From Utricularia gibba (Eukaryota; Streptophyta; Magnoliopsida; Lamiales; Lentibulariaceae): a stretch of 64,000 nucleotides of DNA. Shown here one piece after another: positions 53,339 to 63,216 of the stretch. The position numbers and the translations under genes were made by a program. The stretch lies in contig NEEC01000012.1 in assembly GCA_002189035.1 (NCBI GenBank), positions 682,001 through 746,000 on the forward strand, in the 5' to 3' direction. Within the stretch, counting starts at the first letter, position 1. Every line of letters begins with the position of its first letter. The notes below the pieces were generated by a model that was given only the letters and a program-made list of their open reading frames with translations, ran no database searches and was not told the origin of the DNA.

Positions 53339-54651
53339 ACCTATGGTCTATACCAAAGGAAAGAAAACAGCAAGAACAAAGCAAAAACACCAATGACTTT
53401 CAGCAAGTAAATCCTAGAATCGATTATAAATTCAACAAATTTCAAGTGAGAAACTCCACACAACGAATGGTGTATGCAATTTGAAATCAACCCATGACTC
53501 AAAACCCTCAATTACTGGTGAAATCACTGGAGATCTCGTCGCACGGCAGCACCGCAACGAACCAAGTGTAAACTCAATGGAGAAAGGGAAAAATAAATTA
53601 TAATAAAAAGATGTAATAATTATTGGAAAAGGTTATATTGATAATTTCATATGAACATTTATCGCAAACCTAATTTTATACTCATATACCAAACGTATTT
53701 TAATCTTAAATCCAAATAATTGAAATTCATCAATCAAACACGAATAATTTTCTAAACCCATGAAATTCATTTATCAAAATCTTAATTAAACTAAACCCGA
53801 GTTTAGGTGTTACCCAACAACCAAACGTGGACTTAGCTCTACATAAAACATAATAACACAGGAAAACAATAAAAAAAAATACAAATCAAAAGTAGGAGTC
53901 AAATCATCACACCATATTCATTTATTCTAAGAAATCACCTTAATTTAACCTCTCATATTAATTAATAAAATCACACTATCATAAGTGAAATTAAAAAAAA
54001 CATTCAGTCATATTTGAAAGTAAGACATATAATAGTAAACATTCAAAATGTATACAGAAATAAAATTTAAGATTTGGTTCTCCGTTGCTATTGTTCTCGA
54101 CTTCAAACAAGCATTCTTTTCCCTTCTTGCTTCTTCTCTAGTTTTCTAGTTCTTGATTGAGTCCCCTTGCTTTTTCACGTTGTCTAAATATTCTCTTTCT
54201 TTTTCTCAAATTATCAAAATATCTTTCGTTGTTCTTCTTGTGTCACGCAACTTGTGTTCTCTTTCTACTGACTTTTTTTTTTTGCTGCTACATGACTTTT
54301 TGCTCCTCTCCTTTTTGCTTCTACGTGCCATATCGCTTTTTATGTTAGAAGTACAGTTGTTTTTAACCGAAATGCTGCAACATCACTAAATAGTATATTA
54401 AAACAAAAATGTGAACTTTGTATATTTTTTTTGTAAAATAAAACACAACAATGTTAAAAATTCGAAATTATTAAAACATACCATTTTACTCCTAAATACT
54501 CTAATTTGACAATTTAAAATTAACCATAAAATTTGTGTAGGCGGCACGGCACAAGAGCAAGAATGTTTTACAACAACTACAATGAGGTTCTGCTGACCTA
54601 ATCAGTACAGGAAATGGAAGCTTTATTTCTTTCTTTTTTTGTTTGTTATGT
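53339..54651. other. AT-rich spacer left of the composite MULE
   Basis: No gene supported. A pyrimidine-rich run at 54.1-54.35 kb gives short frames with no domain. The last bases (CCCGGGAAG, 54652-54660) are the candidate target-site copy of the MULE. Confidence 0.45.
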
Positions 54652-54660
54652 CCCGGGAAG

Positions 54661-54775
54661 GGGTCATTTTCAAAACCATCCACTACAAAAAAAACTCAAT
54701 TCCAAAACCACACATTGTGTGTACTATGTGTACAAAACCACTCATCCTAACTTTTTCTTTTCTTTTTTGAATTAC
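54661..54775. repeat. MULE left terminal inverted repeat
   Basis: Matches the complement of 63060-63205 with moderate divergence. Begins GGGTCATTTTCAAAACC and runs into a TTTTTGAATTACTTTTATTC stretch that also has a counterpart at the other end. Confidence 0.75.
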
Positions 54776-55202
54776 TTTTATTCTAAGAAATTGTACACAT
54801 TTAAATATAATAAATATATACATTTAAATAATATAATTTCTGTTATAAATATGTCAAATTTTTTTTAAAACACTATTTATGTCACTCAAACTAACTAATT
54901 AATAAAATATTTTTAAAAAATTACTCATAATTATAATTGTATAATTTTAAAATAAAAAATGCACATACTTATTTTTCTAATATTCCTCAAGATATTTACG
55001 TTTTTTTTGAAATTACAAATATAATGCATATATATTATATGTATCATTATTTTTGAACATATAATAATAGAAATCATATTTTCCTATATATTATAATTAT
55101 ATTTCGATTAATGAAAACAAATTTTACATATATTAATTTATATTGAAATTAATGCCTACAATATAAATTACAGTATCCGAGATTTTCAATCATCGTAATA
55201 AT
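54776..55202. other. AT-rich subterminal region of the MULE
   Basis: Very AT-rich and without frames. It resembles in base composition the 62.73-63.06 kb region at the other end of the element. Confidence 0.45.
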
Positions 55203-55761
55203 TGATGGTAATTCTGCAAGTGTACATAAACCATCGAAATAATAAAATAAGATCGTATCCATAGGGAATTGTTATTGGAATATTCTTTTCAAAAAAAAGA
55301 TTTACAAAGATTGAAAATAAAAGAAAGATTGGGTTTTGAAGACAATAAGAAAAGTGGCCTTGGATCTAAGATCCACCTTACTTGAAACTCGACTTTGCGT
55401 GTGTGCAAACCTTGAAGATTGACCTGCTTGCACAAGCTTTGGGGGAGTTATGCTAAAGTAGTGCTACTCGGTGACCGTTATAGCACCGTCCCTTGTTTTG
55501 TGGGATTATGGAATCAACCACGCCACCAGAGCTATTTCACCTCTTGTGATAACCCATGTTTTCTCCACATCCAAATCTAATCCCTACACCTGACACCTCG
55601 CAGACAGATTAGACAGAATGTGCCTTACCAACGATGTCCAATTGAGCCCTTCTCCTTAAGTGCTTGAGGCCAACCTTTGATTCTCCCACACTCCCTTAGG
55701 GTTATATGGTACTAAAGATCACGTTGGTAAAGAAAATGTTGTGAAAAACAAAATCAGACCT
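55203..55761 (-). repeat. LTR-like repeat family K, copy 2 inside the MULE
   Basis: Matches 10089-10655 along its length in the same orientation. It starts TGATGGTAATTCTGCAAG and loses similarity at 55762. It lies between the MULE left end and the transposase 3' end, so it inserted into the MULE or was carried with it. Confidence 0.7.
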
Positions 55762-58330
55762 ATGCTGTAATATTGATAATATTTATCCTTATTTCACAAA
55801 CGACCAAAAATTTACGCATAAGTGACTTCTGCTTCCTAGGCTGTTGAGTAGACGAGCTAGGAAGATCAAACCTAGTGATCATACCTTGAGGTCGTTCTTG
55901 AAGTGATGACCGTGGTTGTTGAGAAACACCTTCGAAATCACGGTGATATGGTACATCAATAGATACCCGATGGCTCTGAGGTCGACTATGTGCAGGTGAA
56001 GCTGTATCTTGTGAAAATCTTGGTCTCCCACTATGTCCACTTCTCCTTCCTGTGCTCCTTCCCCTATCCATATTCATCCTATATCACGAACTACGTGTAC
56101 GACCATGTCTAATCATCTTTTTACATGTAGGATCATGAATGAGGGGCATTGTTGCTGGCCAATGTTTCTCTGCTCGAAGTGGATGAAATTGGACCTTGTA
56201 TGCTTTCAACAAATGTTGTTGTAAGTGTATGGGATCCACATATTGTCTTAAATCAACTCCAAGTCTCTTGCACGCCTGAAATAAGCATGTCTTTTATATT
56301 GAATAAATGAATATTATTAAATCATAGTCTAACCTATTGTGCATGTGAGCATGGTATTCCATAATTTTTCCATTTGCAGCACGTGCATTTGCCCTCCTTG
56401 ATGCACACCACACAAATGTTATCTTTCCCATTTGCTTTCTTTCGGGTGATTACATGAACTATCATTTTGTAGCGATCATAAATCTCTACTCTTGAATAAG
56501 GATGAGACTTGTCCCAATGATCAAACAATCGTTGTGCTTGTGTCGAAAGGACTTGATTCTTCCTTTGTGCCTCTAGTGCCAACTCCAAACCTTCTGAAAT
56601 ATACTTTTTGCATCGAGCAAATGTAGCCTGCATGTTATTACATTCAAAATTTCGGTAAATTTAAAACACAAAACACAAATTAATCATACCTGAGCCAATG
56701 TCGTAAGTGGGAGATGTCGAAAATAGTGAAAGCAATAGCGATGACATCCTCCAAATTCTTCACTAAATGCTGTAACTCTGATTGCTGCCTTTCGATTAGA
56801 GTCACATCTATAAGGAATCAAGCACGTGGGTTTTCTCAAAGCAATGTAAGTTCCCACTAGCTCTAGAAACCATAGCCAAGAAGCATCAGTTTCTTCATCT
56901 ACTATGGCAAATGCAAGCGGCAGAATCTTTCCATATTGAGAGACGGTCACCGCAATGAGCATTTTGTGCCTGTATGTCGCATACATGTGCGTTGCATTGA
57001 CTGAAATAACCGGACGGGTGTGCTAGTAGGCATGTATACATGGTCCAAACGCCCAGAAGTAATAGTGCAATGTGACTCCATCTTCCTTATTCCTCCATTG
57101 GATTACGGTGCCTGGATTTTGTAAGGCAACTTCATTTAAGAAATCTGGAAGTTTCTTTACTGATTCCTCCCATGTGCCATACACCTTCTCAAAGGCCTTT
57201 CGCATTCCATACCAAGCACGTTTGTACGGTACTTCATAACCAATACTATCCAACACAGTTGCAATAATAGTTGACACTTTGGTCCCAATCTCTGCTTCAA
57301 TATATGGCTTGGCAATCTCAGAGATATATGGCTTGGCAATCTGTGCTTCAATATATGGTCCCAATCTCAGAGATATAATCATGATTGATGTTTCTGTAAT
57401 AAAAGAATCCCGCCCCCTGCCGCTTGCATGTGTGAGGCTCAATAAGCTTTGAGATCTTCCATTTTCCCAATTGTTTATAATGAGCTGCGCGAATCCTCCA
57501 GTGACAATTTTGAATGTCACGTTGTTTGCAATACATCTCCAAGACTCTAGGCTCAGTGTCACCAACAGTGAACTCCTTTCCAATTTCAATGGAAAATTCT
57601 CTAACTTGTCTTCAAAAATCTTCTTTATCTTCAAATAGATCACCTTCCTTAAATCTCGGTTCATATTGATGTGTGTATACTCCATGATTACTTGATTCTT
57701 CCTCTATATCATGTAAATCTTAGTTAGGAAACCATTCCGAATCAAAACTTGTGTTTCCTTCAAGCACATTCTCTTCACCTTCTGAGTTTTGAGGAGTATG
57801 ATCAATATAGGGAACCTCATTTTCATTAGTGAATTACATAAATGAATCGCCATCAATATTTTGGACTGGACCGAAATCATAATCCACATATTCATCTATA
57901 GAAAAATAGAATATCATAAAATTAAAAAAAAACATATACAATTTATTTACAAGAAAGAAATAATCATTACTGTTGTCTCCAATTTGTGAGTGAGATTCTT
58001 CTAAAAATAAAATGGGTCATATTCCACAAATAAATCCACCGGAGCAATAACATGGTTACGTTCATGAAGATAATCTAGGTTGCTCTGTGTCTCTAAATTC
58101 AAAAACCTCATTTCTCTAGTCACAACATCAAAAAACTGGACTGATAATCTAATGTTGAACCTCAAAGAAGACAATTGAACAATCTCATATAACTTTGCTT
58201 TTAATTCTTCCAATGAAATATCGGCATCTAACTGAAAAAACTAGATTGGTGCCACACTATAACTTACGTAATTCCCGTAATTAAAGATTTGACCTCCAAA
58301 GAAGACCTTGTATGAGACAGATCTGAAAGC
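55762..58330 (-). pseudogene. MULE transposase (MuDR type) with SWIM zinc finger
   Basis: Cuts and joins the element's terminal repeats. Leftward order: N-terminal domain (FGGQIFNYGNYVSYSVAP, ISLEELKAKLYEIV, near 58.3-58.1 kb), MuDR zinc-finger region (CHWRIRAAHYK..WKISKLIEPHTC, 57.5-57.4 kb), a linker with internally repeated PYIxxxIAKPYI units, the DDE core (FWAFGPCIHAY, VISVNATHMYATYRHKMLIAV, LAFAIVDEETDASWLWFLELV), and a SWIM motif CTCCKWKNYGIPCSHA at 56.35 kb. The tail reads GVDLRQYVDPIHLQ, HWPATMPLIHDPTCKKMIRHG, GRRSGHSGRP. Introns at about 56634-56690 and 56281-56333 keep GT-AG. Damage: a shift near 57.35 kb, TAG at 57023-57025, and the first catalytic aspartate is asparagine (56996-56998). 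Confidence 0.85.
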
Positions 58331-58369
58331 CATCCAAATAGAGAGATATGTAAGAATGAGGTTGTAAGA

Positions 58370-58610
58370 AGATGAGGTTCTGGAGAAGGATGAAAGAATG
58401 GTTTTCAAAAGCCTTTCAATTTGAACAATTCGGTCATGTGATTGGGGCATGTGAGTCCAAAACATGGGGACACATATCAGTAGACTTTATTGATCTTGAA
58501 ACATGTAGTTGTCGGTGTTGTCAGCTGATAATGGAATATAGGCGGCACACCGCAATGGAGAAACCAGTGAGTAGCCAAAGATATAATCAAAATTACACAA
58601 ATTAATAAAG
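58370..58610 (+). pseudogene. Possible SWIM-type fragment, opposite strand
   Basis: The plus-strand frame reads CESKTWGHISVDFIDLETCSCRCCQLIMEY. VDxxxxTCSCRxWQL is the usual lead into a MULE SWIM finger, but the GIPCxHA half is missing. It may be a piece of a second MULE transposase nested head to head. It is short, so this is tentative. Confidence 0.35.
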
Positions 58611-58919
58611 ATTTAGTATGTTTAACAACCTAAAAATGTGTGATTAAGTGTATGTGTATGATGCAATAGAGAGTAAGTGTATACTTTTCCTATTTCTAGA
58701 GTAAAAAAAGTGGAAATTGAAGAATTTTTCACAATGAAACACATTCTCATTACTACATCTAAAACACTACATACACATTCATTTCACATTTTTTTGAATC
58801 TTATTCATGTATGTAAAAAAAATTGTAATAAGTTGCAAATGATATGTAATTCATAACTATGTTCAATATATGATCATATTTTTTAATCCCGTCTTCAAAA
58901 CATTAACCAGATGGATTTA

Positions 58920-58961
58920 TAGGGTTTAGGGTTTAGGGTAAACCTCGTTTTACCCTAAACC
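58920..58961. repeat. Telomere-like inverted repeat
   Basis: TAGGGTTTAGGGTTTAGGG on one arm (58919 region, including plant TTTAGGG units) faces TTTTACCCTAAACCCC on the other, with a CCTCG spacer. It lies between the two divergent genes of the MULE. Confidence 0.8.
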
Positions 58962-58970
58962 CCAAATATG

Positions 58971-58999
58971 GTCACCGTATATTCAATTACGGTGACCAT
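58971..58999. repeat. GGTCACCGTA inverted repeat
   Basis: GGTCACCGTA and TACGGTGACC form perfect 10-bp arms around an 8-9-base loop. The arm carries the CACCGTA core that recurs through both tandem arrays to the right. Confidence 0.85.
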
Positions 59000-59429
59000 C
59001 CGTAAATCTGCTATTTTTAGCAGAATCTCATCAAATTTCACTTCGCGCGCCTTCCACTTATCACGTGCTACAGTATTTTTGACTGAAAAAGTATCATTCG
59101 GTTCCCGATAAAACAGACTGATAGATTTCCTGAATTTATTAAATTGGGTTTTAAAAAACAAATTAATTACTTTAAAAATTTATTTACACCATTCTTATCT
59201 TCCTTCTTCAACCACCATATCAATCTTCACATTTCAAAGGTTTTTTCACGCAGAACAGGTATGCTTTATGTGTAATTTTTGTTTATGCTTTTTTATATCT
59301 TAATGGTCATAGTATTGGGTTCTCTATTTCATGAGGATCTGAAAGCATACAAGATTTGTTTTATCTGAAAATTTTCGTCACTGCATTGATCAATGTTGTG
59401 AGTGAATCTAAAAAGGATGGATGGCTTTT

Positions 59430-60190
59430 TTTTTTTTTTTTGAAATTATAGTCACCATAATGCGTTTGTTACAATGCATTGCTCTGAAAGTATCCCCACT
59501 CTTTTTCATTTTGAAATTACGGTAACTGTAATGTGCAAAGATCTCAAAGCATATGAAACGTTATTTTACTCTCGTCACCATATTATGCGATAATTGCGGT
59601 GCGTGGCTATGAAAGTATGCATATGTTTATTATATTTTGGATTTGTAGTCACCGTAATTCTTTCTTTGCAGTGCGTGGCTTTATGCAGATGTTTTTTTGT
59701 TTTGTATTTTTCCTCACTGTAATGTGTTCATTGTGGTGTGTGGCTTTAAAAGTTTGCGAAATTTATTTTATTGTGAAATTTTAGTCACTGTAATGCGATC
59801 ATCGCGGTGTGTGGCTATGAAATTATGCGAAGTTTATTTTATTGTGACATTTTAGTCACCGTATCTTTTTTATTGTGGTGTGTGGCCATGAAATTATGTG
59901 AAGTTGATTTTATTATGACATTTTAGTCATTGTATCTCTTTCATTGCGATTTGTGGCTATGAAATCATGTGAAGTTTATTTTATCGTGAAATTTTAGTCA
60001 TTGTAATGCCTTCATTGCAGTGTGTGGCTATGAAATTATACGACGCTTATTTTATTATGAAATTTAAGTCACTGTAATGCTTTCATTGCGGTGTGTGGCT
60101 ATGAAATTATACGAAATTTATTTTATTATGAAATTTTAGTCACTGAAATGCTTTGATTACAGTTTATGGATTTGAAAGTATCCATTTTCA
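59430..60190. repeat. Tandem array 1, about 71-bp period
   Basis: Units contain TTTTAGTCACxGTAATGC, then CATTGCGGTGTGTGGCTATGA (split here) and GAAATTATxCGAAGTTTATTTTA (in part). The GTGGCT motif falls at about 59603, 59675, 59739, 59811, 59882, 59953, 60024 and 60095, so the spacing is near 71 bp with small drift. More divergent units lie on the left. It sits directly upstream of the phosphatase-like gene. Confidence 0.85.
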
Positions 60191-60207
60191 TTGTTCTTTA
60201 TGCAGAG

Positions 60208-61943
60208 ATGAACACATCAGAAAAGTTGAGGCTTCGATTCAATATTCCTGCAGAATATCAATTGTGGGATAAGGAAAAGGATGAAGAGATCGTTGGTGAT
60301 ATTCCAGAACGTGTTGGTCCTAGGGGTTTTGCTATCAGTACTGAGTACCTTAGATGGGGCTTGCATGTGCCAGTGGTACCATTTATGTTGCAAGTTTTGA
60401 CATGCCTTCAAATTCCATTTTCACAATTGACTCCTAAGTCAGTGGCATATATATTGGCATGGGTTTACATTGCTTGTGAGGAAAGCATTCCCCTAAAATT
60501 GCCTATTTTCTTTGCTATGAGCATGTGTAGTAGAATAAAGGATTCACCAAATTATGTGATAAAGGGTAAGCCTACAAATAAATTAGTGAAAGGTCTATGA
60601 AGTGGCTATGATAGTTAGTGGACAAGTTTTGTATGGGTTTCTCCTCCTGAAGATTTACCAAATGATTTCCCACGCACAGTTCCAAATTCTCATCTTATTG
60701 GAAAACCACAAGGTATTTTATGTGTTAAACAATTTTTTATACTATGCTCTTTTATGAGAATTGTTCTGATTTTATTGATCTAATTTACTTATGCTTACTG
60801 TTCGGTGTTGAGATGTTACCAAGGGATGTCGTTGATGAATTCATTGCTTTTTTTAAAGGACATACTAGGTCATTGACTACAATCCTACCTCCCATCTTTA
60901 GAATTCGGGGGGGCACAGCCAAGTTTTGGTGTGGGAAAAAAAGGATTACAAAGAATGATGATGATGTGGATGATCAAAGTGGAAATGATGCTGATAATTT
61001 ACACGAAGATGTGGCGGTTGACAATGAAATAAATGATTTGGCAGCTGAAAATGAGGCGTTGAAGCAACAACTAAAGTGGTATCAATCCAGATGGCCTTCT
61101 TTCTGTGAATCAAGTAGTCATATTCCAACGGTGCGGAAATTAGTAGTATTCGAAGTCAATGGGATTTTTGCTGATATTATTTTTCATTCATCATCAACCA
61201 TCAAAGGGCGTCCAGATAAGTGGATTTATGGGCGAGCAGGTATGGTATTTATTTAGTATTTCACACATTTGCAACATATAGTTGCTAATTTATTGACTTA
61301 ACTTTATTGCATATGTTATATTTTCAGTGTTTCTAAGACCAAATGCTAGGGAGTTTATGGAATGGTGTATGCAACATTTTGATGTTGCACTATGGTCCTC
61401 ACTTGGAGGGTAACATACAAAATATTATATTATCTTTTTTATATATATGTTTTACATGTTATTCTTTTTGTTACAATGCACAACTAAACTAAGTCATTAA
61501 TTGGATGTTTGGCAAGAAGATGTCAAATTTGGCATTCATATGGGATGGAACGAAATGGACCACCACAAACCTTCGAGTCCTCAAGAAGCCAGCAAGTATG
61601 GTTTTGCTAAAAGAGTTGCGAAAAATATAGGAGGATGATGCTTTTCATGGTCGGTATACACATGATAACACCTTGTTGGTAGATGATTCACCATACAAGT
61701 CTACAACAAATCCAGTAATAATTTTATTTAAAAATTTCATAAGTTAAATTTTATTTTTTTAGTTTAAATTATACTCTACTGGTTCTCAAATAGGATGACA
61801 ATGTCATATTTCCATACTCCTACAAGCACACGGATCATAAAAAAGATTCATCTTTTATGGAAGGGGGTGAGATGAAGACTTTTCTTGAAGCCCCAATGAA
61901 TGACCATCCAGACTGGGAGTATTACAAAGCATTAGTAGAGTAA
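60208..61943 (+). pseudogene. MULE-borne gene: transposon-like N-terminal domain plus NIF/FCP1-type HAD phosphatase domain
   Basis: An acceptor TTTATGCAG precedes the ATG at 60208. Exon-like blocks: 60208-60712, about 60813-61239, 61328-61409, about 61510-61714, 61794-61943, most with GT/AG borders. The N-terminal part (STEYLRWGLHVPVVPFMLQVL, in part; SQLTPKSVAYILAWVYIAC; WTSFVWVSPPEDLPNDFP) resembles the putative gypsy-type/plant-transposon domain (PF04195-like). A coiled coil (NEINDLAAENEALKQQLKWY) leads to the phosphatase domain: RKLVVFEVNGIFADI, VFLRPNAREFMEWCMQHFDVALWSS (in part), NLAFIWDGTKW, NTLLVDDSPYKSTTNP and VIFPYSYKHTD. Plant relatives of this type usually read FDxNG; here the nucleophile is glutamate (61152-61154). 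Stops at about 60598, 60622 and 61628 and uncertain phase at two junctions mark it as decayed. Confidence 0.7.
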
Positions 61944-61989
61944 TTCTCATTTTCTATTTCATTATGCATATTAGGAGCACTTTTGCTTT

Positions 61990-62722
61990 ATTGTTATCTA
62001 GTAACTGTAACTGATGATTACAGTGATCAGCAGAAATAGGTAATCATCATTTTGCTTGGTAGAGTACTATAAGTATATTCTCTGAGAATTGTAATTGATG
62101 ATTACGATGATCGGCAGAAATAGTTAATCATCGTTTTGCTTAATAAAGTATTATAAACATTTTCTCTAGTAACTGTAATTGATGATTACGGTAATCCGTA
62201 GAAACAGATTATCATTTCCTTATATTACTTTCAATTCTTGTAACTATAATCGGTAATTACGGTGACCGTAAAATTTAGAGATACAAACTATTACTCGAGT
62301 AATTCTTATTTTCTATTTTATGCTTGTTCGGAACACTTTTGGTTAATAGACTACTATCACCATGTTTTCTAATCACTGTAATTGATGAATTATAGTGATC
62401 GATGGAAATAAATGATTATGGTTTTTCTTATATTACTTTTATTTGTGGTAACTATCATTGATGATTACAGTGATCGTTAGAAATAGGCAATTATTTTTTT
62501 TATATTAATTTTATTTTTTATAACTGTAATTGATGAATTGTAGTGATTGAAATAAATATGTAATTATTATTTTCTTTATATTAGTTTCATTTCTAGTAAT
62601 TGTAATTGATGAATTGTAGTAATCGATAGAAATATGTAATTGTTGTTTTCTTTATATATATTTTTTTATTTCTGATAACTGTAATTAATGAATTACAGTG
62701 ATCAACATAAATAAAAAATATT
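61990..62722. repeat. Tandem array 2, about 75-bp period
   Basis: Units read TAACTGTAATTGATGATTAC then GGTGATCGxxAGAAATA and an AT-rich filler. Starts fall near 62001, 62086, 62168, 62239, 62381, 62458, 62520, 62598 and 62676. Each unit has a GTAATT..AATTAC self-complementary core. The ATTACxGTGA motif is the complement of TCACxGTAAT in array 1, so the arrays oppose each other. Confidence 0.82.
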
Positions 62723-63059
62723 AATATGAAAAAGTTAAATGAAACGATATTTATGATTTTTAATTTCATTTATTATTTATAAAAGAATATATGATATAAT
62801 TTGATTTTTCATTTTGTTTAAATTATTTATTTTTCTATTGTTTAATTGTATATATTTTTGAATATATAATAATTAAATAAAATATACATTATGAAAAAAT
62901 TAATTTGATTTTTTTTATTTAATATAATTTTTGAATTATAAAAAAGATATTTTAATAATATTTATTACAATTTTTGCAAAACTAATGTAATATATTTTTA
63001 TTTTTTTGTAAAAAAGATAATAGTATTAAAATATGTTGTCAAAAATAAATTCAAAAATG
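62723..63059. other. AT-rich right subterminal region of the MULE
   Basis: Almost pure A/T runs without frames, mirroring the left subterminal region. Confidence 0.45.
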
Positions 63060-63205
63060 AAAAGAAAATCTGTAGAATGAATGGTTTTGACAAGTAGTAG
63101 AGATGAGATGCACACACCATGAGGTGCACACACCAGTAGATGCATACACCGACAGGATGGTTTTGGAACTGGATTTTTTTGTAGTAAGTGTATTTTGTAA
63201 TAACT
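63060..63205. repeat. MULE right terminal inverted repeat
   Basis: Its complement aligns with 54661-54775. It contains two or three ATGAGxTGCACACACC-type short direct repeats at 63105-63150 that are absent from the left copy. Confidence 0.75.
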
Positions 63206-63216
63206 CCCGGGGGAAG

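Follow-up and report, generated by a model that had tools for sequence, protein, structure and literature searches.

A 64,000-nucleotide stretch of the Utricularia gibba genome (contig NEEC01000012.1, positions 682,001 to 746,000; hereafter the window) holds at 54661..63206 an 8.5-kb Mutator-like element (MULE), a dead copy recognized by its terminal inverted repeats (TIRs), by ends common to sister copies and by a target duplication, in which a broken transposase gene is accompanied by a divergent second gene, termed here the cargo gene. The reading we favour, with confidence somewhat short of even, is that the segment is a degenerate member of an old two-gene MULE lineage and that the second gene is an element-owned accessory regulator that may work much as VANC does, with predicted binding to a palindrome. 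Computation shows directly that the two genes transpose together, how the domains of the cargo are laid out, that the cargo is associated with several lineages of transposase and was once under purifying selection, and that a palindrome is common to several lineages.

The genome examined comprises 100.09 Mb in 516 contigs. DNA searches of it with the 5′ end, the 3′ end, the cargo and the transposase yielded 20 regions and then 3 more, among which block-by-block comparison distinguished 15 close copies, the window included. Parts of both genes are kept in 11 of these (the window, L009, L010, L012, L013, L015, L017, L2join, L021, L022 and L023), and wherever both are kept they occupy the same relative place. 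The transposase core is absent from L014, L016 and L025, and the cargo is absent from L024, the only one of the 15 that has a transposase without it; no 3′ end is visible in what was read of L022 and L023, and single exons are absent from several copies. Stretches of six more distant loci were also read, of which two hold both genes in part (L026, L031), one the transposase only (L027) and three the cargo only (L028, L029, L030). An earlier note, made from the letters of the window alone, had proposed that the second gene travels with the element, and both the 11 close copies and the same pairing in distant transposase lineages uphold this; the outcome that it named as fatal, namely that the other copies hold a transposase only, did not come about, L024 being the single such case. 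A recent random capture was rejected on the strength of these 11 copies and of the genome-wide pairing of cargo and transposase, and the definition of a Pack-MULE as a transposase-free element does not describe a family in which 11 of 15 copies hold parts of both genes.

The limits of the element were set at 54661 and 63206 because identical ends are seen in sister copies; the start is the one first proposed, and the end lies one position beyond the 63205 given originally. The TIR regions span 54661..54723 (plus strand) and 63145..63206 (minus strand) and are defined by inverted-repeat arms together with the ends common to sister copies. One arm pair (54660-54693 / 63174-63207) is 71% and the other (54688-54723 / 63145-63180) 75% identical, giving short, imperfect TIRs (71–75% over 34–36 nt) of a kind admitted in the MULE superfamily, and these enclose both genes as claimed. 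The CCCGGG-type flanks noticed beforehand are real and represent a decayed 10-bp target duplication (54651-54660 / 63207-63216; TCCCGGGAAG / CCGGGGGAAG) identical at 7 of 10 positions. The expected length of 9 bp was rejected in favour of 10 bp on the basis of the 11 copies with both ends placeable, in which the matches out of 10 are 10, 10, 10, 9, 9, 9, 8, 7, 7, 6 and 3; the duplication is perfect in three copies and agrees at 8 or more positions in seven, the window scoring 7 and L021 scoring 3. Pooled, the 11 copies agree at 88 of 110 positions, where 110 cross-pairings average 2.7 per 10, and the observed score was reached by none of 100,000 permutations. With the ends unchanged, 8 of the 10 copies compared (all but L016) are fitted far less well by lengths of 8, 9, 11 and 12; the window flanks fit lengths 8, 9 and 10 about equally, and L021 fits no length. 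Target duplications of MULEs span 8–11 bp (PMC6446971), a range that includes the length found here. In the close copies that keep both genes, these move as one unit, and independent 10-bp duplications were seen in the 11 copies examined.

The transposase gene lies on the minus strand at about 55770..58340. Its MULE domain (56684-57022) matches PF10551 with E 6.9e-09, and a 310-aa open piece in sister L010 does so with E 8.2e-14, which places the gene among MULE/MuDR transposases and bears out its initial naming as MuDR-type; matches to SWIM (within 56334-56660) and DBD_Tnp_Mut (within 57348-57611), on the same strand, are weak and below cut-off. On the transposase side, sister matches end near 55202-55253 and restart at 55770, leaving a stretch of about 565 bp (55203..55769) that is unmatched in most sister copies and resembles L026:2287-2831 at 83%. 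In this place most sisters carry the 3′ tandem array described below once more, in inverted orientation.

The cargo gene, on the plus strand, has five exons whose borders were taken from GT-AG sites in sister copies, in agreement with the multi-exon, multidomain structure first proposed. Exon 1 (60208..60712) encodes a Transposase_28-like domain, exon 2 (60805..61239) a leucine-rich stretch and HAD motif I, exon 3 (61328..61409) HAD motif II (WSS), exon 4 (61477..61714) HAD motifs III and IV, and exon 5 (61794..61943) the end of the NIF domain. That the gene still works in this copy was not borne out; it is a pseudogene here. There are two in-frame stops in exon 1, another in exon 4 and altered splice acceptors at exons 2 and 4, exon 5 is shorter than in the sisters, and the motif I nucleophile is Glu, where 9 of the 11 sisters read have Asp, L016 has Val and L023 has Asn. 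The Transposase_28 domain (PF04195) remains detectable in the window (E 4.8e-06, 27.2 bits against a cut-off of 26.2) and also exceeds the cut-off in L025 (32.2 bits), L044 (31.5) and L048 (30.8). The NIF piece of the window falls below its cut-off (0.0054, 16.9 bits against 21.8), which is passed by copy L017 (6.5e-06, 26.4 bits) and by L044 (30.0 bits). In the L044 reading, of 495 residues with two X, Transposase_28 at 44-102 and NIF at 284-453 thus both stand above curated Pfam cut-offs within one protein, separated by a leucine-rich stretch judged by eye to be a short coiled coil; in Pfam scans of the cargo these two domains alone exceeded their cut-offs. Upstream of the L044 cargo, a reading frame at L044:2923-3474 resembles, by eye, an acyl-CoA oxidase exon.

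The earlier description of the second domain as a NIF/FCP1-type HAD phosphatase holds for the fold, by the Pfam matches of L017 and L044, and "phosphatase" is to be understood structurally. The motif-I aspartate, WSS, the lysine and DD are common to the three lineages aligned, and motif I reads DVNG in these and DVNE in L048, so that the lineages compared have DxN in place of the catalytic DxDx(T/V) of NIF/FCP1 phosphatases. Three database relatives of the L044 HAD part, all plant-type NIF proteins, read DMNG, DING and DVNG, and DxN therefore looks like a property of a plant clade and not of the element. UBLCP1 (3shq), at E 7e-06, is the only convincing solved structure matched in sequence by the HAD part.

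Protein searches show that the cargo belongs to a large, scattered family. The genome contains at least 202 matches to the HAD part and at least 151 to the exon-1 domain (150 of 358 and 150 of 323 candidates scored, respectively), which merge into at least 135 exon-1 and at least 93 HAD loci, or at least 164 together, mostly 30–55% identical. Among the matches listed, a same-strand HAD match lies downstream of 63 of the 135 exon-1 loci. The comparison set comprised at least 117 transposase loci (128 of 472 candidates scored), rising to at least 178 with the PF10551 search (150 of 239). All of these locus counts are lower bounds because some matches are left out, namely second fragments of transposase loci and part of the HAD matches, many of these from the window family. 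Contig C41 (35.6 kb; L045) matches part of C451 (L046, C451:3871500-3881400) at 99.8% over 9.7 kb and is probably a second haplotype of that stretch; such pairs slightly inflate copy counts.

A transposase lies within 6 kb of 31 of the 164 cargo loci listed, against 4.1 expected under uniform placement, an expectation that is too low because transposons cluster. The geometry of the pairs is the better control: the transposase is upstream of the cargo in 27 of the 31, of which 16 are divergent and 11 on the same strand (C2:1757871, C2:2974831, C142:583779, C255:1673309, C304:403983 and others). By hand count, 10 of the 31 pairs belong to the window family. A more distant pair, L048, shares the divergent layout of the window element, its identity to the window family being 66% for the transposase (58% over another stretch) and 43–44% for cargo exon 1. 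Among non-window pairs, the 13 in which the transposase is upstream show a correlation between the identities of transposase and cargo (Spearman 0.68, p 0.011); this set includes C507:361797, omits C506 as a probable duplicate of C451:3293561, and leaves aside three HAD-only loci that have no exon-1 identity. The TIRs of L044, L046 and L048 were sought and could not be fixed.

The same data bear on whether the second gene is a separate element that inserted into a MULE, the pairing being a case of nesting. Pfam labels Transposase_28 as gypsy-type, and other insertions are present in these copies, L2join, for example, having a large gap. Against nesting stand the constant relative place of the two genes in the close copies and the mostly upstream transposase in distant lineages, and we regard this explanation as very improbable. 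The scattered cargo relatives, some beside transposases and some beside the palindrome described next, hint at a regulator owned by the transposon and not at random capture.

The cargo gene is flanked by tandem arrays with units of 71, 76 and 84 bp. Eight 71-bp units lie between the divergent genes (59593..60158), and units of 84 and 76 bp make up the 3′ arrays (61997..62719). A 24-bp palindrome, CACYGYAAT-N6-WTTRCRGTG (9+6+9, with a variable spacer), occurs in noncoding arrays of several elements and is common to the arrays of the window and that of L044. At up to two mismatches it is present at nine places in the window, all inside the element and none in the first 54.6 kb: six in the 71-bp array (59650, 59715, 59786, 59999, 60070 and 60141; 0–2 mismatches) and three palindrome-like sites in the 3′ arrays (62374, 62522 and 62677; 1–2 mismatches). 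None was found at this threshold in 20 block shuffles of the element. Genome-wide, the exact palindrome gives 41 strand-hits against 0 for a reversed-pattern control, and with one mismatch 231 against 4. The 41 hits correspond to 29 sites in 18 clusters. The zone within 4 kb of cargo matches makes up 1.43% of the genome and contains 21 of these sites and 11 of the clusters; a twelfth cluster lies 6.5 kb from such a match. Among the sites listed for C1 to C98, 18 of the 34 added by one mismatch are within 4 kb of cargo. The exact clusters near cargo include those of the window family, the L044 family, L048, C1:7.05M and C414:149k. The positions at which the palindrome varies (Y, R) are the ones open to alteration by C-to-T change, and some of these fall in CpG, a pattern that one might expect if the site is methylated.

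An alternative for these arrays, quite possible although in our view less likely than the favoured reading, is that they are subterminal binding sites of the transposase, that the second gene does other work, such as helping integration like mudrB, and that common MULE lineages account for the link between palindrome and cargo. The arrays do sit near the element ends and between the genes, and mudrB is said to be necessary for integration in maize (PMC6446971). Yet a transposase locus is found within 8 kb of half of the exact clusters (9 of 18), each of which has a cargo match within that distance too, whereas C414:354k and C451:4.97M have palindrome and cargo with no transposase match within 8 kb. 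The one-mismatch site C2:2082609 is near a transposase and has no cargo within 8 kb, but it belongs to L2join, an interrupted copy of the window family. More favourable to transposase sites is C402, a palindrome-bearing cargo locus with a transposase remnant; this match (C402:1724359) lies 6.2 kb from the cargo, with other sequence between, and falls outside the 6-kb pairs.

Selection on the cargo is visible between lineages. Over 13 exon-1 pairs, third positions differ in 55–64% of codons and second positions in 26–34%, and this third-position excess indicates that the cargo was under purifying selection while the lineages diverged. Synonymous change at this depth is near or beyond saturation, and the ratio of nonsynonymous to synonymous rates, a rough value here, is 0.13–0.24 for exon 1, computable in 5 of 13 pairs, and 0.32 for exon 4, in one of three. 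In near pairs the ratio is 0.54 and 0.62 for exon 1, and a 39-codon piece of exon 2 yields 0.18, 0.39 and 1.69. The purifying selection is old, and recent copies carry no clear signal of it. As a separate observation, several stops in the cargo copies, as seen in exon 1 of the window and in the sisters, fall, by eye, at codons for arginine or tryptophan that C-to-T or G-to-A would turn into stops, in line with methylation-driven decay.

Several results weigh against an element-owned regulator that binds the palindrome. Cargo matches are absent within 8 kb of six of the 18 exact clusters (three of these align to the L044-type array), and at up to two mismatches the palindrome was not found in the cargo-bearing loci L046, L029, L030 and L031. 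Selection within the window family was sought by codon-position bias and none was seen: singletons fall on positions 1/2/3 as 117/96/94 and shared variants as 26/35/41 (p 0.19), an even spread by which these copies decay neutrally as far as visible. The fusion of Transposase_28 with NIF was not returned by a protein database, among word-limited candidates only, whether window pieces or exon 1 served as the query, and L044 returned the three NIF proteins mentioned above, in which no Transposase_28 domain is listed. A single-sequence AlphaFold model of the window exon 1 had a mean pLDDT (predicted local distance difference test) of 52.3 with no residue at or above 70 and was not used.

Three further results of this kind bear as well on the possibility that Transposase_28-NIF is a large host gene family captured several times by MULEs in the manner of Pack-MULEs. 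MULEs do capture host genes (PMC6446971, PMC5418596), and in the database the HAD part comes closest to plant-type NIF proteins that likewise carry DxNG. No transposase was detected within 6 kb of 133 of the 164 cargo loci, the candidates having been scored in part. The other outcome that the earlier note named as fatal, a cargo at its own locus with unrelated flanks, was not seen for the window family, and some of these 133 loci may be stand-alone genes. The identity correlation, significant over the 13 pairs, is not so when two non-window pairs of other geometry are added (15 pairs, Spearman 0.47, p 0.08). Finally, every cargo copy read, L044 included, carries stops or frameshifts, a state that tells also against a host gene family; L044 was considered as an intact cargo and rejected for two stops in exon 3. 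Beyond the copies read, many of the exon-1 matches listed have no stops, so intact copies may exist. Host capture is also opposed by the correlation over the transposase-upstream pairs, by the palindrome common to several cargo lineages, and by the 13 PF03031 matches of the genome, none of which, compared by eye, coincides with a listed cargo locus. We consider it improbable.

On the favoured reading of an old two-gene lineage, the cargo would be an accessory gene that MULEs acquired long ago, perhaps encoding a sequence-specific trans-factor that works, by analogy, like VANC. Gene 1 would supply the transposase, and gene 2 a protein in which a domain of Transposase_28 type is followed by a short stretch rich in leucine, resembling a coiled coil, and by a HAD domain of NIF/FCP1 type that belongs with the plant DxNG clade. 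This protein is predicted to bind the palindrome, probably as a dimer, and binding would mark the noncoding arrays of its own element. At these arrays the HAD domain might have a phosphoprotein of the transcription or chromatin machinery as its target or, alternatively, serve as a phospho-binding pseudo-enzyme, and the outcome would be an element kept expressed, much as VANC does for VANDAL MULEs. It is enticing to go further and speculate, in a version that we think unlikely, that this is a regulatory system of non-VANC origin, in which a dimeric Transposase_28 protein recognizes the palindrome in its own arrays and delivers a HAD phosphatase domain whose local dephosphorylation counters silencing or controls the polymerase, the core site staying fixed over deep divergence with spacer and flanks being lineage-specific. 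If the regulator reading is right, anti-silencing or self-regulation by DNA transposons would have evolved more than once, from different domains, and here in a 100-Mb genome. To our knowledge, function has been established for few accessory proteins of plant transposons. Since a protein, a domain fusion and a candidate DNA site can here be named together, the role of a MULE accessory gene becomes directly testable by a binding assay.

A Transposase_28-NIF MULE was not found among the titles and abstract starts listed from an open-access library, a search that left most subscription papers and Repbase outside, and a plasmid search gave no result. Several described systems nevertheless share parts of the design. 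The plant DxNG-type NIF/FCP1-like proteins have HAD motifs, including D-x-N-G, in common with the cargo, and UBLCP1 is a distant match in sequence; the three returned proteins lack a listed Transposase_28. The host protein MAIL3 joins a plant mobile domain (PMD) to a phosphatase (PMC5418596), much as the cargo joins a transposon-related plant domain to a phosphatase-type one, and an anti-silencing use of PMD by MULEs has been speculated in the same source; there, however, the phosphatase domain is of the serine/threonine type, and PMD-MULEs are described as fusing PMD to the transposase. In Abermu MULEs of grasses a second gene, ORFR, sits between the transposase and a TIR on the strand opposite to the transposase; its Ka/Ks (nonsynonymous to synonymous rate ratio) is 0.39–0.56 (PMC9168764), and the layout is in this respect like that of the element here, although the word phosphatase is absent from the searched text of that source. 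KI/KAONASHI and other ULP1-protease MULEs are high-copy elements with a captured enzyme domain, in reverse orientation in KI-MULEs (PMC2528002). In the cargo, by contrast, Transposase_28 is fused to an enzyme domain with a fold of the HAD phosphatase type, and KI-MULEs are described as being without TIRs. The VANDAL MULEs of Arabidopsis (vanA, vanB and the anti-silencing vanC) combine accessory genes with motif-bearing noncoding tandem repeats, and their VANC proteins bind such repeats in the noncoding parts of the very MULEs that encode them (PMC10398659). The second gene here is instead Transposase_28 plus NIF/HAD, the motif differs, the element's own noncoding arrays with their lineage motif being analogous, and binding in the present case is predicted. 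A motif that persists in noncoding arrays across deep divergence and is linked to an accessory gene resembles the VANDAL/VANC arrangement, with no sign of kinship from sequence, no VANC sequence having been compared.

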